Assembly: GCA_903896015.1 (NCBI GenBank)
Contig: CAITWF010000051.1
Span: forward strand, 1 to 64,000
Origin: an uncultured Opitutia bacterium
Lineage (GTDB): Bacteria; Verrucomicrobiota; Verrucomicrobiia; Opitutales; Opitutaceae
Reading direction: 5' to 3'
Length of the DNA: 64,000 bases
Shown here in pieces: positions 4,344-49,878 of the stretch (positions are counted from its first letter, which is position 1; each line of letters opens with the position of its first letter). The position numbers and the translations under genes are program-made. Below the pieces are notes generated by a model. The model had not been told where the DNA came from and searched no databases. It was given only the letters and a program-made list of their open reading frames with translations.

Positions 4344-4486
4344 GGGTTGATGCGAAGCAAGAAAACAGTCGGGCACGCAAAGCGCCTGCAGCTGACGGGG
4401 GACTGGGGACGGAGGGGCGGAAGTGGGGAACACTTCTACCGGGGGTAAAAACTGGAAGAGGCCACCGTGAATTTAATAGCCGATAT

Positions 4487-29851: not shown

Positions 29852-31507
29852 ATGAAAACCCCGCTCCGTTTCTTTGCACCGCTTCTCGTCGGCGCCGCGT
29901 GCGCTTTTGGGCAAACCGCCCCCGCGCCCGCCTACTCCACCGCCATCAGCGAACGAACCGACATCAAAACCTACGATGCGGCGCAGCAGGCGCGCATGAA
30001 ATGGTTCAACGACGCGCGGCTCGGCATGTTCATCCACTGGGGCCTTTATGCCGTCCCCGCCGGCCAGTGGCCTGGCCGCACCGACAAAAACCGCGCCGAA
30101 TGGATCATGATTCAGGAGGATATTTCGTCCGCCGAATACGAGAAACTCGCGCCGCAGTTCAACCCGGTGAAGTTCGATGCGAAGGCGTGGGTCGCCGTCG
30201 CGAAGGCCGCCGGCATGAAATACATCGTCATCACCGCGAAGCACCACGACGGGTTTTCGATGTATGACTCGAAGGCCTCACCCTACAACATCGTCGCCGC
30301 CACGCCGTTCAAGCGGGACCCGCTGAAGGAACTCGCCACCGCCTGCCACGACGCCGGCATCGTCTTCTGCGTCTACTATTCAATCGCCGACTGGCACCAC
30401 CCCGAGTCGCCCGCGCCCTATTCGCAGAGGGCTCGCGACCCGGTCACGGGAAAAAACAACCCGAACCGCGGCTTTCACGGCAACCCGAAGCCCGACGCCG
30501 ACGTGAAGAAATACGACGCCTACATGCGCGCCCAGGTCCGCGAACTGCTGACCAACTACGGCCCGATCGGGATTGTCTGGTTCGACGGCGGCGGCGCGTT
30601 TCGCGTCGAAGGCCGCGCGCAAATTCTCGAGGCCGATCAAATGGCCGCGATGATCCACCAGTTGCAGCCCGCCGCGCTCATCAACAATCGCCTCGGCTTC
30701 GACGCCGATTATGGCACGCCCGAGCAGCGCATCCCCGGCGGAAAAACCGTCGAGCCGTTCGAAGTCTGCATGACTCTTAACGGCCACTGGGGCTACAACC
30801 GCTTCGACGACAAATGGAAATCGCCCGCGACCGTCATCCGCAACATCGCCGACATCGTGAGCAAGGGCGGCAACTATCTCCTCAACGTCGGCCCGACCGC
30901 CCAGGGTGAAATTCCCGCCGCGGGCATCGACATCCTGAAAAAAGTCGGCGCGTGGACCACGCTCAACGCCGCCGCGATCTATGGCGCGGGTCCGACACCG
31001 TTCGGCGACGAGCTTGGCTACGAAGACGCGTCGAAGAAAGACAAGGAGGGCAAACCGCTTTGGATCGATCGCAACGACTGGCGCTGCACGACGCAGCCCG
31101 GAAAACTATTCTTTACGCTGCTCAACTGGCCCGGCGAAAAGTTCTCGCTCCCGAAATTCCCAAACACGCTCACCCGTGCCTACCTACTCGCCGATCCGGC
31201 GCACACTGCGCTGAAAGTCGCGGGCGGAGCTGTCGCGCTGCCTGCGTCCGCTCCCACCGAACTCGCCCCCGTGCTGTGTGTCGAGATCGAGGGCAACATC
31301 ACCCCGAGTCGCGCGACCGAAAAGCTCGACGTGCAAAAAAACCAAAGACTCCTGAGCGCCCCCCACCGGCGGGGGGCGTCCGTCCACGGCGTCCCTGCGT
31401 CGCTCTATTTTTTCGCACTGAGATTCTTTTCCAAAAACGCCAGCGCCACCGGCCGGAGATCGCGCGGGAGCGGTTTCTTGTTCCACGTCTCCCAGTCAAA
31501 CGTGTGA
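29852..31507 (+). CDS. GH29 alpha-L-fucosidase
   Basis: A retaining exo-fucosidase with signal peptide (residues 1-20, ending CAFGQ). The catalytic nucleophile is Asp245 in GIVWFDGGGAF; substrate-binding His residues are in MFIHWGLYAVP and VITAKHHDGFSMYD; SKGGNYLLNVGPTAQGE is a family hallmark. As read, the frame gives 551 residues and overlaps the convergent esterase by about 100 bases. The last 55 residues look non-native and cross a GC hairpin. One base fewer in the A7 tract at 31335-31341 gives a stop at 31353-31355 just before the hairpin and a 500-residue protein, closer to the expected end. A base-call error or slippage is possible. It lies 82 bases after the fucose-isomerase-like gene. 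Confidence 0.92.
   Translation: MKTPLRFFAPLLVGAACAFGQTAPAPAYSTAISERTDIKTYDAAQQARMKWFNDARLGMFIHWGLYAVPAGQWPGRTDKNRAEWIMIQEDISSAEYEKLAPQFNPVKFDAKAWVAVAKAAGMKYIVITAKHHDGFSMYDSKASPYNIVAATPFKRDPLKELATACHDAGIVFCVYYSIADWHHPESPAPYSQRARDPVTGKNNPNRGFHGNPKPDADVKKYDAYMRAQVRELLTNYGPIGIVWFDGGGAFRVEGRAQILEADQMAAMIHQLQPAALINNRLGFDADYGTPEQRIPGGKTVEPFEVCMTLNGHWGYNRFDDKWKSPATVIRNIADIVSKGGNYLLNVGPTAQGEIPAAGIDILKKVGAWTTLNAAAIYGAGPTPFGDELGYEDASKKDKEGKPLWIDRNDWRCTTQPGKLFFTLLNWPGEKFSLPKFPNTLTRAYLLADPAHTALKVAGGAVALPASAPTELAPVLCVEIEGNITPSRATEKLDVQKNQRLLSAPHRRGASVHGVPASLYFFALRFFSKNASATGRRSRGSGFLFHVSQSNV
31357..31378. terminator. Hairpin between convergent GH29 and esterase genes
   Basis: An 8-bp GC stem (CGCCCCCC at 31357-31364 with GGGGGGCG at 31371-31378) has the loop ACCGGC. 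On the minus strand it is followed after 15 bases by a T-rich stretch (TTTGGTTTTTTTG); on the plus strand the T-run is missing. It lies between the likely end of GH29 and the esterase stop at 31405, where a two-way terminator would be expected. Confidence 0.5.
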
Positions 31508-32310
31508 CCGATGCCGTCGAGAAAAACTGCCTCGTGCTCCACCCCGCGCTCCGTCAGCACGCGCACGAGCTCCTCCGACTGCGTAAAATCCACGGTGGGA
31601 TCGGCGTGGCCGTGCAACACGAGCACCGGCGGGCAGCCTTTCGCGGCGTGCGTCACCGGTGAAGCCGCGACGAGCAACGGATCGTCCTCCGTCGTCGCGC
31701 CAAACACGGTGCGCGAGCTGCCCATAAGTTTGCGCATCGGCGTGGGCTCACCGTTCGGAGTCGTCTCCTTGCGCGTAAGCAGATCCGTCGGCCCATACAT
31801 GTCGATCACGCAGCGCACCGCGCTCGACACACCGGGATACGGTGCATCGGGTTCGAGCCCCTTTTTGTCAGTCGTAAAGCCGACCATTAGCGCGAGGTGT
31901 CCGCCTGCCGATCCGCCTGCAACCGCGATGCGCGCGAGATCGACGTGATACTCAGAGGCGTGCGCCCGCAGAAAACGCACGGCATTCTTGCAGTCGAGGA
32001 GGCACGTCGGCCACGCACCGGCACCCAGACGGTAGTCGATGCTGACCGCAACATAGCCGGCGTTTGTGAGTGTGCCGCAAATTTCCTTCGCGCGCGCCTC
32101 GTTCTTCGTGCCACCGGTCCAACCGCCGCCGTGAATCCACACGACTGCGGGTGAAAGTTTTCCCGCCGCCGGCGGAGTCGGCAGATAAACGTCCAGCTTC
32201 TCGGCACGATCGGGCGCGAGATAGGCGACGTCTTTGATCAAAGTAGGCTCGGCCAGAACGAGGGCTGGCGCGAGAAACAGCGCCGCAAGGATCGGATGTT
32301 GGATTTTCAT
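31405..32310 (-). CDS. Alpha/beta-hydrolase, exported esterase
   Basis: The 301-residue protein has a signal peptide (1-20) and the HSL/BD-FAE type esterase fold. The oxyanion motif is HGGGWTGG (His60), the nucleophile Ser134 is in GGSAGGH, and the Asp and His are in HGHADPTVD and GIGHTFDW. Such enzymes remove small acyl groups from sugars. It is the last of ten closely packed minus-strand genes that also encode malonate uptake and activation, so removal of a malonyl or acetyl group from a glycan is plausible. It starts 9 bases after the stop of the BNR-type protein. Its stop is convergent with GH29. Confidence 0.9.
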   Translation of the reverse strand: MKIQHPILAALFLAPALVLAEPTLIKDVAYLAPDRAEKLDVYLPTPPAAGKLSPAVVWIHGGGWTGGTKNEARAKEICGTLTNAGYVAVSIDYRLGAGAWPTCLLDCKNAVRFLRAHASEYHVDLARIAVAGGSAGGHLALMVGFTTDKKGLEPDAPYPGVSSAVRCVIDMYGPTDLLTRKETTPNGEPTPMRKLMGSSRTVFGATTEDDPLLVAASPVTHAAKGCPPVLVLHGHADPTVDFTQSEELVRVLTERGVEHEAVFLDGIGHTFDWETWNKKPLPRDLRPVALAFLEKNLSAKK

Positions 32311-32319
32311 GGGGAAATT

Positions 32320-33708
32320 TCAGGAGCCCACCCGCACCGCGTCGCTCAGTTCGGTTTCGGGCAGATCGTAGAGGCGCAGTTCGGCCGGCGGCGGCGCGGA
32401 CTCCCGCGGCAGGTCGCGATTGCGACCGAGCGTTTCCCAGCGCAACACCCACCGCCGGCCCTCGGCGCGCACGCTAATCGACTGCACTTCCATGCCCGGG
32501 TAATCGCTACGCACACGCCGCAAACCTTCCGGCAGCGGCGGATCCAACGGCGGCAGCTCGACGGTTCGTTCGAGTGTGTCCGCCCGCAAACGCCAACGCC
32601 CGCTCCCGTGCGCCGCCGTGGAAAAATTGACCGTAATCGCACCGCCTTTCTCAACGTGCGCGGCTCCGATCGAAACTTCGGCCACAAGCGATCCGCCGCC
32701 GGAAAAATTCCACCGAAAATCCCAGTCGCTCAGCTGCACGAGGTCCCAGCCGCCACCCGCGTGCGGACGCGCTGCATAGGCTTGGGAGTTTCCGTGCGCA
32801 TCATAGCGGTGGTAGGTCACGATCGGGCGATTGGCCGCATCGAAGCCGATCGCCTGCGTCATGTTGATCAGGCCCTCTTTCACCTTCGCCGGATCGATCA
32901 GGTCGCTCGTCGCGAGCGTGATCGGCAGCCTGAGGGATTCGCCGCGGCTGTTTTCCCAGTGCACGAGGTCGCGGCTGCGCGCGTAGCTCAGCGCATGGTT
33001 CGTCTCGGCGACGGGCGACTCGCGCCACATCCACACGAGGTGAAAATAGCCGTCCGGCCCGAGCGTGGGCTCGGTCGCGTAGGCGTTGCGGTGGCCCTCG
33101 CCATCGAGCAGCGGTGTGTCGAGCAGCCGCCGCCAGGTGCGCGTCGCGGAGTCATAAACATTGTAGAGATCGGCGCCATTGCCGCTCGCGCCGTCACGGT
33201 AGCGAAACACGAGATCGCCGGCGGCGGTTTTGAAGAATACGGGATACGTGCAGCGCGTTTCGCGATCGCCCGTCATCCGATCGAGGCGCTCAAGCGTCGC
33301 GACATCGAATGGCGCGCGCGTCCGGTAATACACGAGCGGGTTGACGTGCATGTTGCCCGAGACGTGCAGGCATCCCTCGCGGTCGAGCGCGAGTTTGAGG
33401 AAATTATGGCTGTCCCAATTCGTGATGTTCGAATCGCGGTTCGCTCCCGGCACGGACACGCCCGGCGGCTGCACGCGCGTCCATTTTTTGTCACCGAGTT
33501 TTCGCCCCACGATCGTGAGCCGGCGCTCAGCGTCGTAGTAGGCGATGAACTGGTGCCCTCGCTCCGTCAGCAGTGCAAAGCTCACCGGGTGCCCCGTCCA
33601 CACGCGATCGATCAGCTCTCCCGCGGCTTCGGCGGCGTGACCCAGCCGCGCGGATGCCAACGTGAGGACGACAATGCCGAGACGGACGAGGGCACGAAGG
33701 GACAACAT
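32320..33708 (-). CDS. BNR_4-type beta-propeller protein
   Basis: Of 462 residues from ATG 33708, the first ~28 form a signal peptide (LVRLGIVVLTLASARLGHAA). The rest is a repeated-blade protein with the WDSHNFLKLALDREGCLHV and SGNMHVNPLVYYRTR blocks typical of BNR_4 proteins. Members of this fold include polysaccharide lyases of PL24/25-type and sialidase-like glycosidases; others have no proven activity. A lyase or hydrolase role on an acidic glycan is therefore possible but not shown. The frame extends to 33921, but that would overlap the next gene, so the ATG with a signal peptide was chosen. Gap to the upstream gene is 5 bases. Confidence 0.8.
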   Translation of the reverse strand: MLSLRALVRLGIVVLTLASARLGHAAEAAGELIDRVWTGHPVSFALLTERGHQFIAYYDAERRLTIVGRKLGDKKWTRVQPPGVSVPGANRDSNITNWDSHNFLKLALDREGCLHVSGNMHVNPLVYYRTRAPFDVATLERLDRMTGDRETRCTYPVFFKTAAGDLVFRYRDGASGNGADLYNVYDSATRTWRRLLDTPLLDGEGHRNAYATEPTLGPDGYFHLVWMWRESPVAETNHALSYARSRDLVHWENSRGESLRLPITLATSDLIDPAKVKEGLINMTQAIGFDAANRPIVTYHRYDAHGNSQAYAARPHAGGGWDLVQLSDWDFRWNFSGGGSLVAEVSIGAAHVEKGGAITVNFSTAAHGSGRWRLRADTLERTVELPPLDPPLPEGLRRVRSDYPGMEVQSISVRAEGRRWVLRWETLGRNRDLPRESAPPPAELRLYDLPETELSDAVRVGS

Positions 33709-33713
33709 GCGAC

Positions 33714-34694
33714 TTATCGTTTGACGGCGGGCACGTCGGACGACCAGTCGATTTCCACCCGCGAGAGATACCAGGTTTTCCCTTTGTCGCGGTTGCCCTG
33801 ATAAAAAAGCCACGTGCGACCGTCGCGATCCGCGAAGGAGCCGGGATGGCCGGACTCGGAGGCGTTCCATGCGTCCGGCGCGCCGTTCGGCAGGAGCGGC
33901 TGGACCGACGCACGCGTCCAAGTGAGTCCATCGCTCGAGGAGGCGGCGCCAATTTGCTGCGGCTCGTTGTTGTAGCCGCCAGCGTAAAACATCCAGAGCG
34001 TGTCACCGCGCCGGACGATCGTCGGAGCCTCGATGCAGTTGCGCTCCCACGGCAGCTCCGGCTTCAGGACCGGCGCATCGACAAGCTGGCGCCATTGTCC
34101 TCGGGCGTAGTCGGACGCGAGCGGAGCTGCGGCCACGCCGATCATCTGCACTTTCATCGCCGGATCGCGCGTCGCGAAGAACAGCAGCAGGCGATCGCCG
34201 AGCGGCACCACCTCCGCATCAATCGCCCGACCAACGGTCCACGCGCCGTGCGGCGAGAAAACTGGGTTCGTCGGCTCCCGCGTGAAATGGACGCCATCAT
34301 CGGACCAGGCGTGGCAGATCGCGTCTTTCGGACCGTTACCGTAGGTTTGGTAGAACAAATGCACGCGCCCGTCATGGACCCAAGCGCCCGGCGCGCAGAG
34401 TCCCTGACGATCGCATTCCTGCGCGGGCAACAACTCGCCAATCTTGGTCCAGTGCTCCAAGTCGCGGCTTTCGGCGATGCCGATAGCCCAGCCGTCGTTC
34501 GATCGCTTGTCGCCAAACGGCGGGATGGAATAATACATCAGCGCGCGCTCACCGAACCGGATGACCGAGGGATCCTTCGAGAACGGGCGGCCGCGTGACT
34601 CGTCCGCCCAATACATCGACGGCAGCGGCGGCGCGGCACGGGCCGCGACCAGTCCCGCCATGAGAAGCAACCCAATCTTCGCGACCTTCATCAT
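33714..34694 (-). CDS. Five-bladed beta-propeller glycoside hydrolase (GH43/GH117-like)
   Basis: This 326-residue exported protein has a signal peptide (about 1-20) and a fold of the GH32/43/62/117 kind. Candidate acidic residues are Asp in FSKDPSVIRF, Asp-Ala-Glu in GRAIDAEVVP and Glu in NCIEAPTIV, in the order of base, transition-state stabiliser and acid in such enzymes. Repeated HLFYQTY, LLLFFATRD, LWMFYAGGYNNEP and TWLFYQGNRDKG segments mark the blades. Which family it belongs to cannot be decided without alignment. It overlaps the start side of the operon tightly: its start codon overlaps the stop of the agarase-like gene by 4 bases (34691-34694), so the two are translationally coupled. 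Confidence 0.75.
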   Translation of the reverse strand: MMKVAKIGLLLMAGLVAARAAPPLPSMYWADESRGRPFSKDPSVIRFGERALMYYSIPPFGDKRSNDGWAIGIAESRDLEHWTKIGELLPAQECDRQGLCAPGAWVHDGRVHLFYQTYGNGPKDAICHAWSDDGVHFTREPTNPVFSPHGAWTVGRAIDAEVVPLGDRLLLFFATRDPAMKVQMIGVAAAPLASDYARGQWRQLVDAPVLKPELPWERNCIEAPTIVRRGDTLWMFYAGGYNNEPQQIGAASSSDGLTWTRASVQPLLPNGAPDAWNASESGHPGSFADRDGRTWLFYQGNRDKGKTWYLSRVEIDWSSDVPAVKR

Positions 34695-36082
34695 GGCTTC
34701 GGCGCGCCTCCCCGCGCATCGAAGTAATCCGCTAGGGCGTAAGCCCGCTCGTTGATTCGCTTCGTCGCGGCGAGGAGGTCGGCATACGGCGCGTAGCGAC
34801 TGCTCAGCAGGCCTTTGTTCGAATCCTGATTCGAAGGATCGGCGCGCGTGTCGGCCGGGTCGTTGTCGATGTATTTAAACCAGTGCCAGCCGACGCACAC
34901 GCGCGACTCCAGCAGCCCGAGCGTGAAGTTTTCGTAGAAGCGACCGCGGTCGGCCTGCGTTTTCACGAGCCAACCGGCACCCGTCGTATTCCCGAGGCCC
35001 GAGTCCAGGCCCTTGGCATACCACTCAGTAATAAGGCACGGGCGGCCCGACTCGTGCTCCCACATCGCGAGCCGATCGGGGGCGGGCGTCCAGGCATTGT
35101 AGTAGTTCACCGCGACGACATCGAGATGCTTGCCGGCGGTGCGAAACACCTCCGGAAAACGCAACGCAGCACCGTGGATGCGTGAGCCGAGAAAGAGGTG
35201 GTTTGGATCGTATGTGCGGATCGCGCGACCGACGACCGCGAAATAGCGATCGACGACGACGGCGAGAAAATCCTGCTGATCGCTTTCCGAGATGTCGCGG
35301 GCGGTCGCGGTGGCGCCATGGCGATCGTGGAGAAATTTTTCCGCGGCCGCGTGGCCGGGATCGGCGTCGGGCAGCGCAAGATAGTTGGCGAGCGCCTCGC
35401 GTTTAAAGGGCAGCTCGTTGTCCGAAAAATGCCCGAGCAGGTGCGGGTCGTCCTTGGTGGCGGCAAGCTGCTTCGCGTGTTCGTCGCAAAATTTTTCGAA
35501 GCCCGGATCGAAAACGAAGATACAGTCCTTCGGATAACCAGTATGGCCGGGCTGCTGGAACGTGCCACCGCGCACGTGGCCGTAGGCGCTCATGAAATTC
35601 CAGATGCGCGTGTAGGCGAGCGGCGCGGCGACGGCGGCCAGATGCTCCGTGTCGGACCACGCGCCAAGGCCGTTGAAGGAAAACGCGCGGAGCCAGTCCG
35701 TCGTCTGCGTCGCCCACTGCGCCTCACCGCCGAATTTCTCAGCGAACGCCGCCCGCGAACCGGGCGTGCGTTGCGGCGTGACCGAGACGACGCCCTTATG
35801 GATAAACAGCCCGCCAAGCGGATCGACGAGCCACCAGCGGCCGGCAATTTTTTCGACGCGGAAAAATCCCGTCGCCTTGACGGTGCGGTGCGCGAGGCCG
35901 CCATAATCATCGAGATCGGCGTCAGCGTTCGCTGCGATTGCGGTGGGAAGATCGGCGAGGGTGCGCGTGTCGTAGGTCTTCCACGGACCCGCCGGCTTGG
36001 CGGCGACTTCGACCGGGACGGTCGCGCGCAACGTCGCCGCGAGAAGAAGCAGAACGGGGCAAAGGGTTTTCACAGGGAGCAT
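34691..36082 (-). CDS. Agarase-like glycoside hydrolase (clan A, GH50-like)
   Basis: The 463-residue protein starts with a signal peptide (MLPVKTLCPVLLLLAATLRA) and has a TIM-barrel of clan A. The block GFFRVEKIAGRWWLVDPLGG is typical of GH50-type agarases and relatives. The acid/base Glu is likely in HFSDNELPF and the nucleophile in CLITEWYAKG. Lengths of GH50 enzymes are usually longer (with extra beta-sandwich), so this may be a related subfamily rather than a true agarase. A TTG start at 36094 is possible, but the ATG at 36082 begins the signal peptide. The gene is 8 bases after the GDSL esterase gene and overlaps the next by 4 bases. Confidence 0.75.
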   Translation of the reverse strand: MLPVKTLCPVLLLLAATLRATVPVEVAAKPAGPWKTYDTRTLADLPTAIAANADADLDDYGGLAHRTVKATGFFRVEKIAGRWWLVDPLGGLFIHKGVVSVTPQRTPGSRAAFAEKFGGEAQWATQTTDWLRAFSFNGLGAWSDTEHLAAVAAPLAYTRIWNFMSAYGHVRGGTFQQPGHTGYPKDCIFVFDPGFEKFCDEHAKQLAATKDDPHLLGHFSDNELPFKREALANYLALPDADPGHAAAEKFLHDRHGATATARDISESDQQDFLAVVVDRYFAVVGRAIRTYDPNHLFLGSRIHGAALRFPEVFRTAGKHLDVVAVNYYNAWTPAPDRLAMWEHESGRPCLITEWYAKGLDSGLGNTTGAGWLVKTQADRGRFYENFTLGLLESRVCVGWHWFKYIDNDPADTRADPSNQDSNKGLLSSRYAPYADLLAATKRINERAYALADYFDARGGAPKP

Positions 36083-36090
36083 GACGCAAC

Positions 36091-36852
36091 TCAACGGCCC
36101 CCCGTTTCACCCGCCGCCACTTCCGCCCAGGCGGCGGCGACCACCGGCTTAACAATCGCGGTGAACTCGCTGTAGGCCGGCGGAAAATAGTGGAGCTTGT
36201 CCGGCTTATAGAACTCCATGCGCGGCTCGCCGTCGGGCCGGAAGACGGCCGGATTAAGATCGACGAACGTGCAGTGCGGCGTAACTGCGCAGAGTTCGCG
36301 CACGAGCCGGTTGGCCGTTTCGACGTCGGGCCAGCGGGCGCGCTTGTCGGGCGCCTTGATGATTGAGGCGAACACAAAACGTGTGTCGGGCAGCGCGGTG
36401 CGCAGCTTTTGGAGGAAGTCATGCACCCGCGCAAAGATCGCCTCGGCAGACTCTCCGCCGTTGATGTCGTTGCTGCCGCAATAGTAGACGACGACTTTCG
36501 GCGCGAGCGGATTCACCAGCAAATCGAAGCGCTCCAGCACATCGCTGGTGCGCGAGCCACCAAAAGCACGGTTGCGCACGGGCAACGGCGCGAGGTCGGT
36601 GCGCACCGTCGTCCAGAGACGAAAGATGCTGGAGCCCATGAAGAGAATTTTTCCCGGCGCGACCGGGTCGGCCTTTTCGGCCTCGATCATCTTTTGGATA
36701 TCGGGCTCGAAACGACCGGCCTTCGTTGGATGCGCGGCGGCGTAGGCGCGCCCCTGGGCAAGCGCCGAGTTAAGCGTCGGAGGAAGCTCGGCCGCCGTCA
36801 GCGAGAACGCTGCACCGAATACGCACGCGATCGTTAGGAATCGAGATTTCAT
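36091..36852 (-). CDS. GDSL-type SGNH esterase
   Basis: The 253-residue exported enzyme (signal peptide 1-21) is an SGNH hydrolase. Block I is ILFMGSSIFRLW, with Ser75 as likely nucleophile in a GSS variant of GDS; Gly is in NRAFGGSRTSD, Asn in YYCGSNDINGG, and Asp-x-x-His in KPDKLHYFPP. Such enzymes remove acetyl or other acyl groups from polysaccharides. It lies directly after the malonate transporter gene madM (14-base gap), and together with the second esterase at 31405 it is a good candidate for release of malonyl groups. That substrate is inferred from context only. Confidence 0.88.
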   Translation of the reverse strand: MKSRFLTIACVFGAAFSLTAAELPPTLNSALAQGRAYAAAHPTKAGRFEPDIQKMIEAEKADPVAPGKILFMGSSIFRLWTTVRTDLAPLPVRNRAFGGSRTSDVLERFDLLVNPLAPKVVVYYCGSNDINGGESAEAIFARVHDFLQKLRTALPDTRFVFASIIKAPDKRARWPDVETANRLVRELCAVTPHCTFVDLNPAVFRPDGEPRMEFYKPDKLHYFPPAYSEFTAIVKPVVAAAWAEVAAGETGGR

Positions 36853-36866
36853 GGGAGGAGAAGGCG

Positions 36867-37634
36867 TCAGACCCGCAAAAGCGCGCGCACCGCGAGAAAA
36901 AGTGCCGACGGCCCGAGCAGGCAGCCGAGTCCAGTATAAAAGGTGGCTGCCATAATCCCGTAGGGCACGAGTTTCGGGTCAGTCGCGGCCAGACCGGCGG
37001 AAACCCCGCTGTGCGTGCCCATCGTGGCACCGTAAACCATCGCGGTGTGGGGATTATCGAGTCCGATTTTTTTGGCGAGCAGCGGCGTTGCGATCATCAC
37101 GACGATCGACTTCACCAAGCCGGCGGCGATGCTCAAAGCCATCGCCTCGGAACTCGCGCCGAGCGAGGCTCCCGTGACCGGACCGACGATGTAGGTCACC
37201 GCGCCGGCGGCGATCGTCGTCACGCTCACCGCATCGTGGTAGCCAAAGACCACCGCGATGACCGCGCCGCACGCAAACGAAACGAGCACCCCTGAGAACA
37301 AACCAATCACGACGGGGAGTCCGGACTTTTTTAGCTCCGAAAAACTTGCGCCAAACGCAGTCGCGACGATCGCGAAATCGCGCAGCATCGCGCCGCCCAT
37401 CAGGCCGACGCCCGCAAACATCGGCACGTCCGCGAGACCGTTTTTTCCACCTGTGATCATGCCGCCCACATAGGCCAGCACCAGCCCGCCAAACACCGCG
37501 AGCGCCGAGCCGTGCAGCCGCCCGCGTGTGAGCCGCGTAGAAATAAAATACGACAATCCCATCAACGCCCCCACGAGGGCGAAGGCCGTGAGCAGACCGT
37601 TCTTGAGCAGCGATTGTCGGAGCAGTTCAATCAT
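36867..37634 (-). CDS. madM: Malonate transporter subunit MadM
   Basis: The 255-residue integral membrane protein has about 8-9 helices and matches MadM strongly: LLKNGLLTAFALVGALMGLS at the start, GLMGGAMLRDFAIVATAFGA, TYIVGPVTGASLGASSEAMA and LAATDPKLVPYGIMAATFYT near the end. In Malonomonas rubra MadL and MadM together import malonate with sodium or protons. A clear ribosome site (GAGGAG) precedes its ATG. MadL lies 10 bases upstream. Here the pair sits among polysaccharide genes instead of a malonate decarboxylase cluster, which is unusual. Specificity for malonate is assumed from family identity and from matB next door. Confidence 0.9.
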   Translation of the reverse strand: MIELLRQSLLKNGLLTAFALVGALMGLSYFISTRLTRGRLHGSALAVFGGLVLAYVGGMITGGKNGLADVPMFAGVGLMGGAMLRDFAIVATAFGASFSELKKSGLPVVIGLFSGVLVSFACGAVIAVVFGYHDAVSVTTIAAGAVTYIVGPVTGASLGASSEAMALSIAAGLVKSIVVMIATPLLAKKIGLDNPHTAMVYGATMGTHSGVSAGLAATDPKLVPYGIMAATFYTGLGCLLGPSALFLAVRALLRV

Positions 37635-37644
37635 GCGCGGCTCC

Positions 37645-38004
37645 TCATTTTGGCCGCCCGAGCCGGGCGAGCGCCGGAATCATCGCGAAACTGATCGCCG
37701 TGCCCGCCACGCCTGCAAGAATCGCGAGCGGGCCGCCCTTCACCGAAGCGAGTACGTTTTGCTGTGCAGCCATCGCGACAACGATCGGGATATACATGTT
37801 ACTCCAAAACACGACGCCGGCGGCCGAAGGCGGCGTGAACCGGCCTCGCGCTTTCAACCAGTCCGTGGAAAAAATCAGCAGCAACATCGCGAAGCCCACG
37901 CCACCGATGTTGGCCTTCACGCCGAGCAACGCCCCGAGTTCATCTCCCAGGGTCAATCCGACGAGCGTGGAAACCGCCAGCAGCGCTACGCCGTAAATGG
38001 TCAT
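37645..38004 (-). CDS. madL: Malonate transporter subunit MadL
   Basis: The 119-residue small membrane protein starts at ATG 38004 (MTIYGVALLAVSTLVGLTLG). It contains LLGVKANIGGVGFAMLLLI and SNMYIPIVVAMAAQQNVLA, both characteristic of MadL, and about four transmembrane helices. It works with MadM, whose gene follows after 10 bases. The frame continues upstream to 38235 with an Arg-rich, non-membrane sequence that lies opposite to matB coding sequence, so the later start is correct. Its start is 7 bases after the matB stop, so matB, madL and madM are almost certainly cotranscribed. Confidence 0.9.
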   Translation of the reverse strand: MTIYGVALLAVSTLVGLTLGDELGALLGVKANIGGVGFAMLLLIFSTDWLKARGRFTPPSAAGVVFWSNMYIPIVVAMAAQQNVLASVKGGPLAILAGVAGTAISFAMIPALARLGRPK

Positions 38005-38011
38005 GGCTGCT

Positions 38012-39475
38012 TCATCTTTTCCACGGGGGCAGCAGACGTTTTTGCACCTTGCCGAGCGCCGTGCGCGGAAGAGCATCGATACGGACGAAGGCGCGCGGCT
38101 GCTTGAACGACGCGAGCTGCGAACGCAGCCGTGCGGCCGCAGCCGCCTCGTCAAAAATCGCCTCTTCGACCACAACGTAGGCGACCGGCACCTCGCCGCG
38201 CACCGGATCGGGGGCGCCGACCACGGCCGCTTCATGCACGCCGGGCTGCTCGAGAATCAGCTCCTCGATCTCGCGTGGGTAGATGTTGAAGCCGCCCGAA
38301 ATGATCAGATCGCTGCGGCGGCCTTGGAGCGTGATGTAACCGTCGGTCGCCCGCACGCCCACATCGCCCGTACGAAACCAGCCGTCGCGCCACGCAGCGG
38401 ACGTCGCGTCGGGGCGACGCCAGTAGCCAGAGCAAACATTCGGTCCCTTCACCCAGAGTTCGCCACTCGTGCCGTCGGGCACAGGAGCGCCCGCTTCGTC
38501 GCAAATCTTCACTTCCACGTGCGGCAAAGGCAGTCCCACGGTGCCGGGGCGGCGTTCGCCGTCGAACGGGTTGCTCACATTCATCAGCGTCTCGGTCATG
38601 CCGTAGCGTTCAAGAATCACCGAGCCAAATCGCTGGCGGAATTTTTCGTGTACCTCGGCGGGCAGTGGCGCCGAGCCGGAGACCGCGAGCCGCAGCCGCG
38701 CGCCAAACGATCGCGCGAGCGGTTCAGGAATTTCCAGAAGCCGCACGAACATGGCCGGCACGCCGAAGAACAGCGTGGGCTGGTAGGACTCAAACCATAG
38801 CGGCGCCTGCAAATATTCAAAACGCTCCGTGAGCCGCATGTGGCAGCCGCTGAAGAGCCAGCAATGCACTCCGTTCGCGAGCCCGTGCACATGAAACAAC
38901 GGCAACGTCGCGAGGTAACGATCCGCTTCGGTGATGCGCCAGGCGTTGACGAGCGACTGGCCGTTGGCGGCGAAGTTTCCGTGCGTGAGCACCGCGCCCT
39001 TCGATGCACCCGTCGTGCCCGACGTGTAGATCAGCGCGAGTGGTGTGTCAGCCGCTCCTCCAACGGCCTGCCGATCGGAAGCGTGCGTCGCCGCTTCGGT
39101 TGCGAGCGAATCGACATCCCACACGGGCACACCCGCCGGGAGATACGTGGCCATGTCGCGCGAGGTCACCACCGCCACCGGCTCCGCGTCGGTAAGAATA
39201 TGCCGCAACTCGCGCTCGCGATAGAGCACGTTCACCGGCACGAGCACCACGCCGAGCTTCACCGCCGCCAGCCAGAGATCGATCACCTCGACGCGGTTTT
39301 GCAGGAAGAACGCGAGCCGATCGCCGTGCTTGAGTCCGCGCGCGCGCAGCAGATGGGCGACGCGATTGCTGCGCGCCTCAAGATCGCCGAAAGAAAACGC
39401 CGCTCCGCCAAATTCCAGCGCCGTCCGCGCGGCGCGGCCGAGCAATGAACGGTCTATGAGTGATAGCAGCGACAT
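38012..39475 (-). CDS. matB: Malonyl-CoA synthetase (acyl-CoA ligase MatB type)
   Basis: The 487-residue ANL-family ligase makes malonyl-CoA from malonate, ATP and CoA in the cytoplasm. Core motifs are present: ATP loop YTSGTTGASKGAV, A5 ERYGMTETLMNVSNPFDG, A7 GWFRTGDVG, hinge GRRSDLIISGGFNIYP and the catalytic Lys in PRTALGKVQKR. The text SNPFDGERRPGTVG right after A5 is a hallmark of malonyl-CoA synthetases; the Arg there binds the free carboxylate of malonate. Start ATG 39475 is 10 bases after the upstream glycosidase stop; the frame runs on to 39550 without reason. Product malonyl-CoA could feed fatty-acid synthesis; no malonyl-CoA decarboxylase is present in this window. Confidence 0.88.
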   Translation of the reverse strand: MSLLSLIDRSLLGRAARTALEFGGAAFSFGDLEARSNRVAHLLRARGLKHGDRLAFFLQNRVEVIDLWLAAVKLGVVLVPVNVLYRERELRHILTDAEPVAVVTSRDMATYLPAGVPVWDVDSLATEAATHASDRQAVGGAADTPLALIYTSGTTGASKGAVLTHGNFAANGQSLVNAWRITEADRYLATLPLFHVHGLANGVHCWLFSGCHMRLTERFEYLQAPLWFESYQPTLFFGVPAMFVRLLEIPEPLARSFGARLRLAVSGSAPLPAEVHEKFRQRFGSVILERYGMTETLMNVSNPFDGERRPGTVGLPLPHVEVKICDEAGAPVPDGTSGELWVKGPNVCSGYWRRPDATSAAWRDGWFRTGDVGVRATDGYITLQGRRSDLIISGGFNIYPREIEELILEQPGVHEAAVVGAPDPVRGEVPVAYVVVEEAIFDEAAAAARLRSQLASFKQPRAFVRIDALPRTALGKVQKRLLPPWKR

Positions 39476-39485
39476 GGTGCGAAAG

Positions 39486-41039
39486 TCAGAATTGGGGAAC
39501 AGCCTCGCCATCGGGCGTAGTGCGCGTGGTGGAGAATTTGATTTCACCACGCTCCACGATCACGAGCGGAAAATCGAACAACGGAAGATCGGAAAAGATC
39601 ACCGCCCCCGCTTCGACGCGCGGCGGCTGGAGCGTGCGCACCGAGCCGTCGAGGGGATTGACGATAACGGGCTCCTCAAAGCTGAGCCCTGCACCGCGCA
39701 GCTCAATGCGCGCCGGGCGCGGCGTGTATTCCTGAGGCTGCCAGGGCAGCCAGTAGGCGACCAACGCGGCGCCGTCCTTCGCGCGATAGGCCGCAACCAA
39801 CGGGATCGACGGGTATGCGTCGTCCGACTCACCGATGCCGTTGAACTGACCGGGCGAGAGCACGCGCACGGCGGTGCGCCCGTCAAAGTCGACCGGCAGG
39901 TATCGGCCGTCGAACACCGCGCAGAGATTTTGATAGGCGTAAAACGCGGGCTTGGGTTTGAGTCCCGGGTTGGCCAGGAGGCATTTTTCGTTCACCCCAT
40001 TGCCGCGCACCCGACGACCGGTGGCTTCCGCCGGGTAACCGAGCAGGTGGTCGACGGACTTCAACTCCGGGCGCTGCTGCCGATCCGCCCGGTTGCCACC
40101 GTCGTAGAGTTTGAAAAAATTACTCAGCGAGCACCGCATGAAAAACGTGTCCACGAATGCCTGCCGTAACAGCCACTTCGCCTGCACCGTCTCACCCCAC
40201 GGGCTGACGCCACGAAAGTCCTTCGTGCTGCTCGCCGAGGGGTAGCCACACTCGCCCTGCCAAAGGGCCAGCTTCGAATTGTGCGCGCGGAGTGCAGCCC
40301 AGGTTTCGTCCGCGAAATAAATCCGCGCCTCGGGGAGTGCGGCGTAATTATGAAACGAAACGACATTGACCGCGTGGTCTGTGTCCTCCGCGAGAAACCC
40401 CGCAATGAACTTCGGATCGAGGCCCGCGAGTGCCCCCGCGATGATGACGGCCTCCGGCTGCGCGCGACGAATCCGCGCGGCCGTCAGGCGGACGAGCTTG
40501 CCATAGGCGGCAGCGTCCGGCGGCGCGCCCCAGTAGGCGTAGTGATTCGGCTCGTTCCAGATTTCCCAGTGGGTCACCCGTTCTTTCGCGTGAGCCACGG
40601 CGGCATCAACGTAGCGCAGCCACGCCTCCATCGCCGTCCCATCCAGGACCGGTGGTGCCGGCTTCACGCCGTAAATCAGCCGCCAATCGGGATCGGGGTT
40701 GGGAATGGTGCCGGAGTAGAGCTTGTTGCCATTGCTCAGACACACGAACGGCGTGATGCCGTTAGCACGCGCGGCGTTCACCGGCTCGTCCAACGACGAA
40801 AAATCGTAGCGATCTTTTTCGCGCTCGATGGCCGGCCACGCAGCCAGGAAGCGCGTCCACTTCACGCCGATCTCGCCCGCGCGATTGAAGAGCGTGACGC
40901 GCTCGTTGTCGCCGGCCTGGACGCCCCACGGCGAATCGGCAATGTCGGCCGAGCGGTGTGGCACCACGTAGCCGAGCGGTGCCGCAACCGCGGCGGACAA
41001 CATGAGCAGCGCGACGAGCGCGAGTGGACGCGGCAGCAT
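39486..41039 (-). CDS. Clan-A glycoside hydrolase (GH39/GH5-like)
   Basis: This 517-residue exported enzyme (signal peptide 1-19) has a TIM barrel with acid/base Glu in HWEIWNEPNHYAYWG and nucleophile Glu in LALWQGECGYPS, followed by a C-terminal beta-sandwich. The spacing and the IWNEPN motif fit GH39 and related retaining families (beta-xylosidase, iduronidase, beta-glucosidase types). The sugar removed cannot be told. It is the second gene of the ten-gene unit, 4 bases after the TonB receptor and 10 before matB. Placing a ligase between glycosidases supports one shared function for the whole set. Confidence 0.82.
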   Translation of the reverse strand: MLPRPLALVALLMLSAAVAAPLGYVVPHRSADIADSPWGVQAGDNERVTLFNRAGEIGVKWTRFLAAWPAIEREKDRYDFSSLDEPVNAARANGITPFVCLSNGNKLYSGTIPNPDPDWRLIYGVKPAPPVLDGTAMEAWLRYVDAAVAHAKERVTHWEIWNEPNHYAYWGAPPDAAAYGKLVRLTAARIRRAQPEAVIIAGALAGLDPKFIAGFLAEDTDHAVNVVSFHNYAALPEARIYFADETWAALRAHNSKLALWQGECGYPSASSTKDFRGVSPWGETVQAKWLLRQAFVDTFFMRCSLSNFFKLYDGGNRADRQQRPELKSVDHLLGYPAEATGRRVRGNGVNEKCLLANPGLKPKPAFYAYQNLCAVFDGRYLPVDFDGRTAVRVLSPGQFNGIGESDDAYPSIPLVAAYRAKDGAALVAYWLPWQPQEYTPRPARIELRGAGLSFEEPVIVNPLDGSVRTLQPPRVEAGAVIFSDLPLFDFPLVIVERGEIKFSTTRTTPDGEAVPQF

Positions 41040-41043
41040 CGGT

Positions 41044-43302
41044 TCAGAAGCGCGCGCCGACGGTAACCGATGTCGTGCGCGGCGCGCCGCGAGCTTGGAA
41101 GCCCTCCCAGTATTGGAGGTTCGTCACGTTCTGCACGCGCACGCCAAAGGTGAGGCGCTTGTTCCAGATTGTCGTGCGATAGTTCGCGCCCACGTCCTGC
41201 CGCGTAAAGCCCGGCACGGTGGGCCGGCGGCTGTCGCGAAACACAAAGCTCTGCGTCAGCGAAAGGCCTTTGAGCCAGGTATTCTTGAACTCATATTTGT
41301 GGAAGAAGCTCCACGACTCGCGGCCGGGGCCCTGCGAAACCGGACCGCCCACCGCCGAGGGCGTCGATTTGTTGGCCGTCACAAACGCGTGCAGGTTCGT
41401 GTAGGTCGCGGCGATTTGGTAACCGTCCACAACCTTGACCATGAAGTCAGACTCCCAGCCTTTCGAGCGCGCGGACTGATCCTGCGTGCTGCGGGCGCCC
41501 GTCACCACATTTGGATCGAGGCCGGCCGCGATGATCTCATTTGTGGAGACCTGGCGCACGAGGTTGAGCTGATCGATCATGAAGCCGGCAGCATTGACGT
41601 TAATCCTATCTTGCCAGAACGAACCCTTGAGACCGACGTCGTAGCCGTGCCCCTCGACCTGCTGGGTCAGTGGGTTGCCGAACATATCGATCGAACTCTG
41701 CGGCACGCCGGCAAACGAACGGCTGTAGGACGAATAGAGCGAGAGATCCTTCGACATGCCATAGACTGCGCCGAGAGTCGGCGAATTGGCCTTTTCAAAG
41801 AGCTTTTGATAGCGACCGATGGCGGTCGTCGCGATCGGGTTGGAGAGCACAATGGTGCCTTCGTCGTGGCGCAGGCCGAGTAGCAGGTGCGCGCGATCGT
41901 TGAACATCCCGATGACGTTGGTGAACGCGAGCGCGCGGCGGTGCATTTTATTGTTAAGCCGGTTTTGCGGGAGCGTGTAGCGGGTCGGGTCTAGCATCTG
42001 CGTCCAAGCCGGCTGATCGGTGGCGCCAAAAGTGTAGGCCGTGAGCGCGGGCGTATTGTCGCGATTGCGCACGTCATCGGTATCGACGTATTCACCCTCG
42101 AGCACCGCTTGGTGCGTGAGGCCCCAGTATTTGAACTTACCAAGCAAATCGACGAGGGCCGAGTAGGTCGGAACAGTCTCGTCATCGTTAGTAGAGGAGA
42201 GGGCATCAGTGCTCGGCACGGTGAGGCCGTTAACGACCTTGGTGCTGATCTGCGTGCCGCTGAGACGGAGATCGTCGCGGTGGACGCTCGAGAAATTTCC
42301 GGCGATTCGCAGTGACAACATGTCGTTAAAGCGGTGCTGGATTTGGTTGGAGGCCCGCAGTTGGTGCTCGGTACGGCGGTTGTTGGGCCCGAGGGGGCTG
42401 AAGTCCCAGGGAATGAAGGTGCCGTTGAGGTTGAGGCCGTTGATGTCGCCGTTGCCGTGCCACGTGAGGGCGTTGAGCGGCGAGGTCGAGGCGACCGTGC
42501 TGCGGGGCGAGGGCGGGCTCGCGACGTAGTCGAAATACTCGATCGTCGCGGTGTAGCGGGTGTTGTCGGCAATTTTGTAGGAGAGCGCGCCATAGAGGAC
42601 GGTGCGGTTGGACCACGCGTATTGTTGCCACGAGTCACCGGTCTGACGGACGAACACAAAGCGGGTTGCCAGCTTCTTGTTGATCGGGATCGAGGTGTCG
42701 ATTTCGCCGCGGCGCATGCCCCAGTTGTCGCCGCGCGCGGAGAACGACGCTTCCTGCTTGGGCCGCGGGAGCTTCGAGATCGAGTTGATTGCACCACCGG
42801 GCTCAGCGAGGCCGGAGAGGAGCGAACTCGGGCCCTTCACGACCTCGACGCGATCGATCGTCGCAGAGTCGTAGAGCATGCCGGCAAACGGCTCGCGCTG
42901 GCCGTCGCGGTAATTCTTGTTCTGCCGGAAGCCGCGGACCTGGTAGGTGTTGTTGTCGTTAGTCTGATCCTGACTGCCAACGTTGGTGATGCCGCTCATG
43001 TAGTCGGTCGCGTCGGTGAGGGTGAGCGCGCCTATGTCAGACAGAAACTCGCTGGTGATAACCTGCACGGAGCGCGGCAGATCGCGGAGATTGACGTTGG
43101 TGCGCGTGCCGGAGAGCGCGTTGGTCGCGACCCAGCCGGTGTTGTCATCGGCAACGGTGAATTCCGGGAGCGCGACGATTTCTTCGGCGGGCGGCGCGGC
43201 GGGCATCTTCGCCGGAGTCTGCGATTGCGCGCGCACATGGCTGGTGGCGATGAGCGCCATCGCCAGCGCGAGGGAAGCGAGGGAGGTTGTGGGGGATTTC
43301 AT
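41044..43302 (-). CDS. TonB-dependent receptor, first gene of the malonate/glycan operon
   Basis: The 752-residue outer-membrane receptor has a signal peptide (1-26, ending HVRAQ), a TonB-box-like VALPEFTV (43-50), a plug with LRDLPRSVQVITSEFLSD and VEVVKGPSSLLSGLAEPGG, and a barrel ending in Phe. It lacks the regulatory-like domain of the receptors at 1134 and 4902 and looks more like the FhuE/siderophore type, which in Opitutaceae is common also for glycan uptake. ATG 43302 starts the signal peptide; the frame extends to 43485 across the divergent LacI gene, which is unlikely. It should import the oligosaccharide or glycoside that the downstream enzymes process. Confidence 0.92.
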   Translation of the reverse strand: MKSPTTSLASLALAMALIATSHVRAQSQTPAKMPAAPPAEEIVALPEFTVADDNTGWVATNALSGTRTNVNLRDLPRSVQVITSEFLSDIGALTLTDATDYMSGITNVGSQDQTNDNNTYQVRGFRQNKNYRDGQREPFAGMLYDSATIDRVEVVKGPSSLLSGLAEPGGAINSISKLPRPKQEASFSARGDNWGMRRGEIDTSIPINKKLATRFVFVRQTGDSWQQYAWSNRTVLYGALSYKIADNTRYTATIEYFDYVASPPSPRSTVASTSPLNALTWHGNGDINGLNLNGTFIPWDFSPLGPNNRRTEHQLRASNQIQHRFNDMLSLRIAGNFSSVHRDDLRLSGTQISTKVVNGLTVPSTDALSSTNDDETVPTYSALVDLLGKFKYWGLTHQAVLEGEYVDTDDVRNRDNTPALTAYTFGATDQPAWTQMLDPTRYTLPQNRLNNKMHRRALAFTNVIGMFNDRAHLLLGLRHDEGTIVLSNPIATTAIGRYQKLFEKANSPTLGAVYGMSKDLSLYSSYSRSFAGVPQSSIDMFGNPLTQQVEGHGYDVGLKGSFWQDRINVNAAGFMIDQLNLVRQVSTNEIIAAGLDPNVVTGARSTQDQSARSKGWESDFMVKVVDGYQIAATYTNLHAFVTANKSTPSAVGGPVSQGPGRESWSFFHKYEFKNTWLKGLSLTQSFVFRDSRRPTVPGFTRQDVGANYRTTIWNKRLTFGVRVQNVTNLQYWEGFQARGAPRTTSVTVGARF

Positions 43303-43366
43303 GTTGGTTTGGTCAAAAAAAATTCCGCCATTGCGCCGGTCGGGTCGCCGTGCTCCGTAGGCTTTC
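43303..43366. promoter_or_regulatory. Divergent promoter region, receptor operon and LacI gene
   Basis: Only 64 bases separate the two divergent starts, so both promoters and any LacI operator must lie here or inside the genes. An A-tract (AAAAAAAA near 43315-43322) is present. I saw no clear palindromic operator. Confidence 0.5.
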
Positions 43367-44443
43367 ATGAAGCCGAGCCGCCCCTGCACGATGACCGACG
43401 TCGCCCGCCGCGCGGGGGTGCACGCGGCGACCGTCTCGCGGGCGCTCCGCGACGATCCGCGCATCACGCCGGCCCAGCGCGCCAAGGTGCAGCGGGCGGC
43501 CCAGGAACTCGGCTATCGCACCAATCCGCTGGTCGCGGCGCTCATGAGCGCACGGCGTACTGGCCGCCCGCCCGCTTTCCGCGCGACTATCGCCTACGTT
43601 ACGAACTATCCGCGCGAGCGCGCCGAATGGTTTGCGCGGGCGTTCGGGGATATCCTGCCCGGCGCCCTGAATCGCGCGCGGCTGCAAGGCTACGGCATCG
43701 AGGAGTTCAATCTCGCCGATCCGCCCATCACGCCGCGGCGGGCCGCGGAAATCTTTAAAGCCCGCGGCATCATCGGCGCGATTATCGCTCCGCTGCACTC
43801 GGTGCAGGAATATCCGCAACTCGATTGGGCGCAGCTCTCGACCGTGGCGATTGGCTTGTCGATGACCGAGGTGCCGGTCACGCGCGTGACGCACAATCAC
43901 TTTCAGGGAATGAGTCTGGTCTCGCGCCAGTGCCGCGCCGCCGGCCACGAACGTCTCGGCCTCGTCGTGCAGCGCCGCGTGCATGAAAAAGTCGCCAAGC
44001 GCTGGGCCGCCGCGCTGCTGCTCGAACACTCCGAACTGCCGGCCGCTCGCCGCGTGCCGCCGCTGATCCTCGAAGGCGCGGACGAAGCCGCCTTCCTCGC
44101 GTGGTTTCACCGGCACCGCCCCGACGTCTTGCTGAGCCACGACCTCGAGCCGCTCCGCACCTGGCTGAAACACGCCGGCCTGCAGATTCCGCGCGACGTC
44201 GCCTTTGCAAGCCTCGATCGCCGGGAGCGCGACGGCGATGTCGCGGGCGTCGATCAGGATTACGCTGGCGTCGGTGCCGCCGCCGCCGACCTCCTGATCG
44301 CGATGCTGCACCGCAACGATCGCGGCCTGCCGAGCCAGCCCGTCACGCTGGACCTCGACGGCCAGTGGATCGACGGCACCACACTGCGCCCGGGCTCGCC
44401 GGCAAGGCGAGTCACGGCGCGGGCCGAAGCAACCAAGGGGTAG
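43367..44443 (+). CDS. LacI-family transcriptional regulator
   Basis: The 358-residue protein has the LacI helix-turn-helix (MTDVARRAGVHAATVSRALR, about 9-28) and hinge helix (GYRTNPLVAALMSARR), followed by a periplasmic-binding-protein-like sensor domain. It is divergent from the ten-gene receptor/malonate operon with 64 bases between starts, so it is the likely local regulator. The inducer is probably a sugar released from the substrate. The DNA-binding part and the NPLV.ALM hinge closely resemble the partial LacI protein at 63533, which is also divergent from a TonB receptor. The end is convergent with the GH3 gene. Confidence 0.92.
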   Translation: MKPSRPCTMTDVARRAGVHAATVSRALRDDPRITPAQRAKVQRAAQELGYRTNPLVAALMSARRTGRPPAFRATIAYVTNYPRERAEWFARAFGDILPGALNRARLQGYGIEEFNLADPPITPRRAAEIFKARGIIGAIIAPLHSVQEYPQLDWAQLSTVAIGLSMTEVPVTRVTHNHFQGMSLVSRQCRAAGHERLGLVVQRRVHEKVAKRWAAALLLEHSELPAARRVPPLILEGADEAAFLAWFHRHRPDVLLSHDLEPLRTWLKHAGLQIPRDVAFASLDRRERDGDVAGVDQDYAGVGAAAADLLIAMLHRNDRGLPSQPVTLDLDGQWIDGTTLRPGSPARRVTARAEATKG

Positions 44444-44552
44444 AAGCATCCGGCGCAGACTTCGCGGCCCCGTGGCGCGCGCAATCGTCACTTCGTGCGC
44501 ATCGTTGCACAGATGTTGCTCACGGCGAATGGGCTGCTCCCGCCGCGCAAGC

Positions 44553-49871: not shown

Positions 49872-49878
49872 CGCCACG

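Follow-up and report, generated by a model that had tools for sequence, protein, structure and literature searches.

We analyzed a 64,000-nucleotide stretch of contig CAITWF010000051.1 (hereafter the window), from an uncultured Opitutia bacterium, in which a ten-gene operon with a well-conserved core appears to couple malonate utilization to glycan uptake in a variant form that is new. Its core comprises a TonB-dependent receptor, a malonyl-CoA synthetase (MatB), the malonate carrier MadLM, and a secreted GDSL esterase, and we read this core, with a probability of roughly 0.6, as a malonate-harvesting cassette for a malonyl-decorated carbohydrate. It is highly probable that the operon imports and activates malonate. 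Conservation of the core is strong evidence for malonate and fair evidence for malonyl esters; that the acyl group is malonyl, which sugar bears it, and what becomes of the malonyl-CoA are points that we infer.

The ten open reading frames all lie on the minus strand and run from 43302 to 31405. With the best starts, the gaps in order of transcription are 4 bases for TonB-GH39, 10 for GH39-MatB, 7 for MatB-MadL, 10 for MadL-MadM, 14 for MadM-GDSL, 8 for GDSL-GH50 (-4 with a TTG start), -4 for GH50-GH43, 5 for GH43-BNR_4, and 9 for BNR_4-esterase. These values reproduce the tight packing and coordinates given in an initial annotation of this DNA, whose family names for the ten genes also agree with Pfam, NCBIfam, and PDB matches, 'agarase-like' being sharpened to GH50-like and BNR_4 to GH145-like. 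The ten genes are presumably co-transcribed; promoter-like matches were no more numerous than in shuffled sequence. All soluble enzymes of the operon except MatB have signal-peptide-like starts, so glycan cutting and de-esterification would be extracytoplasmic and malonyl-CoA formation cytosolic.

The malonate core and its carrier across the family

The core genes, in order of transcription, are as follows.
41044..43302, minus strand: TonB-dependent outer-membrane receptor, gene 1, with signal peptide (Pfam Plug; NCBIfam TIGR01783 below cut-off)
38012..39475, minus strand: MatB, predicted cytosolic malonyl-CoA synthetase (PDB 4fuq and 3nyq; 44-45% to annotated proteobacterial MatB; motifs)
37645..38004, minus strand: MadL, malonate transporter small subunit, 119 residues (Pfam MadL 153.7 bits; TIGR00807 141.9 bits, cut-off 113.45)
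36867..37634, minus strand: MadM, malonate transporter large subunit, 255 residues (Pfam MadM 369.7 bits; TIGR00808 355.6 bits, cut-off 236.3)
36091..36852, minus strand: SGNH/GDSL esterase, secreted, candidate demalonylase (Pfam Lipase_GDSL_2; AlphaFold model with mean predicted local distance difference test score, pLDDT, of 88; 7pzg, Z 23.4)

The identities first proposed for the malonate genes hold up well. MadL and MadM both exceed curated NCBIfam equivalog cut-offs, and the best PDB matches of MatB are malonyl-CoA synthetases (4fuq, 3nyq). MatB scores 307 bits against Pfam AMP-binding and carries the motifs FHxHG, VPxxxxRL, VSGSAPL, and ERYGMTE. Its R270 and S293 (numbering of the 512-residue open reading frame) align with R236 and S261 of ScMatB, which we take to be the residues that bind the free carboxylate; the surrounding motifs are unlike those of E. 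coli FadD and are retained in the orthologues examined. Judged by motifs and best structures, MatB is a malonyl-CoA synthetase, with a substrate range that stays predicted because its score against the NCBIfam malonyl-CoA synthase model, 481 bits, lies below the cut-off of 558.

We compared the 4.96-Mb window genome (G000, 97.9% complete) with 388 genomes of the phylum and 252 of the same family, reading gene order in locus regions of up to 20 kb. MadM is rare, occurring in 6 of the phylum genomes and 15 of the family genomes; the closest named relative of the window's MadM, at 80%, belongs to an Opitutae metagenome-assembled genome (L001). Within the family, MatB orthologues (72-82%) were found in 36 genomes, the GDSL subfamily in 42, and both together in 31, for a Fisher p of 3e-25 that assumes independent genomes, which are in fact related. 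Orthologues of the TonB receptor (43-75%) occur in 20 family genomes, 17 of which also have a MatB orthologue. Of the exceptions, G469 carries a short contig with MatB-MatC-GDSL, and the others, two incomplete genomes, hold receptor fragments. Receptor and MatB also co-occur in G438, G474, and G449, there on separate contigs.

Gene order within the core is fixed: MatB, a malonate transporter, and GDSL follow one another in 26 loci. The middle slot is filled by MadLM in nine (the window, G161, G473, G573, G450, G444, G456, G454, and G438) and by MatC in 17, the protein of locus L144 matching Pfam MatC_N at 118.8 bits across 148 of its 149 positions. In G352, one of the 17, contig breaks split MatB-MatC and MatC-GDSL onto different contigs. 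Just one MatC locus clearly lacks GDSL (L212, in G436), the remaining gaps being contig ends. On the MatB tree the carrier changes between MadLM and MatC at least four times, or three without L108, where MadLM lies outside the slot; these counts are approximate, given the weak support of several deep forks. L144, the smallest complete locus, holds TonB-MatB-MatC-GDSL and a LacI gene and no glycosidase.

From these sequence patterns, MadLM and MatC appear to be unrelated carriers of one acid that are exchanged while synthetase and esterase persist. Because the slot holds either MadLM or MatC, malonate is very probably the transported acid. Chance grouping of the core is excluded by its order being kept in more than 25 related genomes, and the alternative of the transporter and MatB being random neighbors of the esterase was rejected on the grounds of fixed order and carrier exchange.

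Several other features of these loci were observed. In a metagenome-assembled genome labeled Proteobacteria, MadM is 72% identical to the window's (L003, JAFEGB010000349.1), possibly through mis-binning or transfer. MadM lies in two overlapping frames in the single-contig genome G559 (L116), a frameshift or sequencing error, and the MatB of G579 (L140:3019-4344), in a locus without a malonate carrier, is short by about 50 residues and possibly a decayed copy. Many loci have, immediately upstream of MatB, genes for an SDF sodium:dicarboxylate symporter and a DsbA/thioredoxin-like protein, together with a second large receptor-like gene (L001:2257-4195, L102:2430-4368, L198, L201, L202, L206, and L210). 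Finally, at about 9.7-15.8 kb in L104/L105 (G556, G554), another MadL-MadM-MatB lineage, whose MatB is 35% identical to that of the window, has sulfatase genes after it, so that malonate genes are tied to sulfated-glycan genes a second time, independently.

Proposed mechanism, esterases, and competing explanations

In the pathway that we propose, the TonB receptor would admit an oligosaccharide or glycoside bearing malonyl groups to the periplasm, where the secreted GDSL esterase would strip malonyl esters and the alpha/beta esterase handle other acyl groups. Free malonate would pass into the cytosol via MadLM (MatC in sister genomes), and MatB would convert it to malonyl-CoA, most likely then used for fatty-acid synthesis. 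The bared sugar would fall to GH39-like, GH50-like, GH43-like, and GH145-like enzymes and to neighboring fucose genes, the part that varies between genomes.

The two esterases contribute unequally to this picture. The catalytic Ser, Asp, and His of the GDSL protein are present, its AlphaFold model has the SGNH fold, and four blocks are invariant in 19 sequences: I, G73-S75; II, N94-T102 (NRAFGGSRT); III, G126-D129; and V, D218-H221. Block II carries an Arg in MatB-linked GDSLs where the nearest same-genome paralogues carry a Glu (NRGFGGSEL), and the change sits near the oxyanion residue. Such an Arg would fit an acyl group whose carboxylate is free. As evidence this is no more than suggestive, since NRAFGGSRT is also found in the GH39-linked GDSLs of G510 and G511, which lack MatB. 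Both esterases were initially thought to free malonate; neither is tied to malonate only, as each occurs without MatB, and the GDSL protein is the better candidate. We lean slightly toward its being a demalonylase. The GDSL domain in the L160:6991-7617 region is in frame with an extra C-terminal stretch of about 370 residues.

A number of observations weigh against a cassette directed at malonyl esters. The nearest solved structures to the GDSL model are Bacteroides sialate O-acetylesterases (7pzg first, Z 23.4) and platelet-activating factor (PAF) acetylhydrolase, that is, acetyl-ester enzymes. The window GDSL diverges most within its group, at 44-51% identity where the other members share about 57-95%, and a GDSL of the same subfamily and an alpha/beta esterase stand beside a GH39-like gene without MatB in G510 and G511. 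No conserved palindromic LacI operator was found upstream of the TonB or lacI genes across 18 loci, no malonylated polysaccharide is reported in the literature searched, and the kinship of the genomes means that the co-occurrence counts are not independent.

Some of these points could be explained if MadLM or MatC and MatB simply scavenged dissolved malonate while the GDSL and alpha/beta enzymes deacetylated a glycan, the two activities being merely co-regulated. The acetylesterase kin of the GDSL protein, the genomes with GDSL and GH39-like genes and no MatB, and the MadLM-MatB pairs without any GDSL homologue that are common elsewhere would all fit. However, the order of MatB, carrier, and GDSL stays fixed through carrier exchange, minimal loci keep the TonB receptor and GDSL with no glycosidase, and a TonB receptor should be needless for free malonate, so we consider this explanation unlikely. 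It is considerably less probable still that the acid released and activated in this manner is a near relative of malonate (methylmalonate, for example, or a different small dicarboxylate). MatB enzymes tolerate 2-substituted malonates (PMC6164871), the window MatB falls under its NCBIfam cut-off, and some loci have an SDF dicarboxylate symporter ahead of MatB; yet MadL and MadM are above malonate-transporter equivalog cut-offs, the active-site motifs of MatB match malonyl-CoA synthetases, and malonate is a known substrate common to MatC and MadLM (PMC12303837).

The best NCBIfam match of the receptor, below cut-off, is the siderophore-receptor model TIGR01783, which would suit a scheme in which the esterase cleaves a siderophore that contains malonyl or is of the ester type, and the malonate genes salvage its acyl part. 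With a LacI-type regulator and glycosidases accompanying the operon and no iron genes among the scanned neighbors, we give this scheme very little credence. Nor do we think it at all probable that a malonate module landed by chance in a sugar locus, leaving ten genes that share only a promoter. The glycosidases do differ between genomes, and 33709-44552 is absent from the other genome of the genus searched, G397, where GH3-BNR_4-esterase is intact. Against this, the TonB receptor and GDSL track MatB across genomes, and the malonate core is joined elsewhere to sugar genes: it is followed by GH50 and BNR_4 in G450 and G438 as well, and a fucose-isomerase-like gene (FucI) lies near the MatB/GDSL core in those two genomes and in G444 and G457, so that this neighborhood extends to other genera.

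The variable sugar genes, the glycan, and the fate of malonyl-CoA

Around the core lie the remaining operon genes, the regulator, and convergent fucose genes.
39486..41039, minus strand: GH39-like (clan A) glycosidase, secreted (Pfam GH39 24.1 bits, cut-off 26; PslG 4zn2, E 1e-12)
34691..36094 (start 36082 or 36094), minus strand: GH50-like ('agarase-like') glycosidase, secreted (5t3b, E 5.3e-64; beta-agarase 4bq2, E 1e-29)
33714..34694, minus strand: GH43/GH32/GH130-like five-bladed propeller, secreted (Pfam GH43 70.3 bits; weak PDB matches)
32320..33708, minus strand: BNR_4 propeller of GH145/PL27 type, secreted, candidate for action on L-rhamnose-glucuronic acid (L-Rha-GlcA) (BNR_4 284 bits; 5muk, E 3e-42; 7esk, E 4e-11)
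31405..32310, minus strand: alpha/beta-hydrolase esterase, secreted, BD-FAE/acetylxylan-esterase-like (Pfam BD-FAE 186.7 bits; 6xyc and 6mly among PDB matches)
43367..44443, plus strand: LacI-family regulator, divergent from the operon (Pfam LacI and Peripla_BP_3)
28147-29769, plus strand: L-fucose-isomerase-like gene, convergent to the operon (Pfam)
29852-31507, plus strand: GH29 alpha-L-fucosidase, convergent to the operon (Pfam)
33709..44552, 10.8 kb, no strand assigned: block present in the window and absent in G397 (GH43, GH50, GDSL, MadM, MadL, MatB, GH39, TonB, LacI)

The LacI gene was missing from the gene list of the initial annotation; orthologues at 53-64% stand beside the core in L001, L112, L113, L140, and L144.

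In G397, the GH3 stop lies 4 bases from the BNR_4 start, with the alpha/beta esterase next, and MatB, MadM, the TonB receptor, GH39, and the GDSL subfamily were found nowhere else in that genome. The 10.8-kb difference may be a gain in the window genome or a loss in G397. Because the block is absent there, we read the operon as composite, with a malonate block combined with a resident sugar operon. GH39-like orthologues occur without MatB or MadLM in G075, G510, G511, G583, and G600, beside other TonB receptors where these are visible. Given this block absence, the GH39-like genes without MatB, and the variation in glycosidases, we rejected the whole ten-gene set as one conserved unit. Of the glycan-malonate model put forward initially, and of the gene-order conservation named as its test, what stands is the core: MatB, transporter, and GDSL kept in the family with the TonB receptor, and malonate uptake and activation conserved with that receptor and a secreted esterase. 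The malonyl ester and the sugar of that model are conjectural.

As to the enzymes, the Glu pair of the GH39-like protein, E163 (WNEPN) and E263 (WQGECG), is invariant in eight orthologues; its AlphaFold model is poor (pLDDT 53), too low for use. The GH50-like protein has no Pfam match and a full-domain PDB match to 5t3b (residues 83-480), an entry that we take, like 4bq2, to be a GH50 member. The BNR_4 protein groups with GH145 alpha-L-rhamnosidases (5muk) and more distantly with an L-Rha-alpha-1,4-GlcA lyase, and scores 197 bits against the NCBIfam BT3686 alpha-L-rhamnosidase model, below the cut-off of 700. MR_MLE, SDR, and sulfatase genes are also found in and around the operon, and no SusD family member was found among the scanned genes at 23015-49871. 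Genes for fucose-type glycans abound in much of the window. The GH145-like, GH50-like, GH29, and fucose-isomerase-like genes, taken with those for MR_MLE, SDR, and sulfatase, point to a glycan that contains L-fucose, galactose, and possibly L-Rha-GlcA termini.

Marine Verrucomicrobiota are reported to consume fucose- and rhamnose-rich algal polysaccharides, in an account that leaves malonate unmentioned (PMC8857213), and malonylated plant glycosides are well known. We found nothing pertinent on malonyl esterases or on malonate in polysaccharide utilization loci in the literature searched. Could malonyl esters on natural glycans, probably fucose-, galactose-, or rhamnose-containing ones from algae or plants, be common enough to support a dedicated receptor, a new SGNH demalonylase subfamily, and a decarboxylation-free malonate-to-lipid route in one bacterial family? 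We hold this broader proposal only tentatively and think it rather doubtful.

Elsewhere in the window, a GH95 enzyme (an alpha-L-fucosidase or alpha-L-galactosidase family) lies at 8388-10916 and a large TonB receptor upstream at 1134-4433. Genes for 3-keto-disaccharide-hydrolase/PA14 and plastocyanin domains (47994-51900), which stand next to the operon, adjoin malonate loci of other genera too (L140, L144, L200, L203, L210), and the pathway may include a 3-keto-glycoside step.

Malonyl-CoA decarboxylase (PF05292) was not found in G000 or 12 sister genomes, with G554, G556, and a Methylobacterium positive as controls; G554 and G556, of the other MadLM lineage, carry the gene away from the malonate locus. 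The malonate decarboxylase alpha subunit (PF16957) was likewise not found in G000, with full-length matches in the controls G604 and G606, and full-length PF16957 is absent from the MatB genomes, which gave only 68-column cross-matches in G438 and G456. Because neither decarboxylase was found, malonyl-CoA probably enters fatty-acid synthesis. Acetyl-CoA carboxylase is present, and malonate would therefore add to its supply without taking its place. In E. coli with its native malonyl-CoA supply blocked, a malonate carrier and MatB alone sustain fatty-acid and polyketide synthesis, and MadLM, MdcF, and MatC are interchangeable there as malonate carriers (PMC12303837). The genome may hold a decarboxylase of an unrecognized type, and we see the odds that malonyl-CoA is used for building, not burning, as about even.

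Significance and comparison with known systems

If the malonate-harvesting reading is true, malonyl groups on environmental glycans are a nutrient that has been overlooked and for which the GDSL subfamily is a genetic marker. We know of no earlier natural case in which malonate import and MatB serve a glycan locus with malonyl-CoA used for building. The GDSL proteins would be candidate demalonylases for plant-glycoside chemistry, and the matB-madLM pair a natural decarboxylase-free set useful for malonyl-CoA supply. The initial annotation knew of no described locus of this kind, and we too found none in the literature searched.

The nearest relatives of the operon each share a part of it. The matABC operon (Rhizobium; Gemmobacter L264 is an example) likewise pairs MatB with an adjacent malonate carrier, and MatC itself occurs in the sister loci; however, MatA, the malonyl-CoA decarboxylase, is absent here from operon and genome, and a TonB receptor, a secreted esterase, and glycosidases are added. 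With the mad/mdc operons of Malonomonas and Pseudomonas it has MadL and MadM in common, yet it lacks malonate decarboxylase and activates malonate through MatB instead. Polysaccharide utilization loci or carbohydrate-active enzyme (CAZyme) clusters of Verrucomicrobiota resemble it in their TonB receptor, several secreted glycosidases, esterases, and regulator. Unlike SusC/SusD-type loci, the window cluster has no SusD, and it handles the acyl group by a route of its own, whereas described polysaccharide utilization loci, to our knowledge, leave that group to general metabolism. The closest functional parallel is engineered: E. coli carrying MatB with MadLM, MatC, or MdcF also imports and activates malonate without a decarboxylase and feeds it into fatty acids and polyketides (PMC12303837). 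That system is man-made and fed free malonate, whereas the one described here is natural and linked to an esterase and a receptor.

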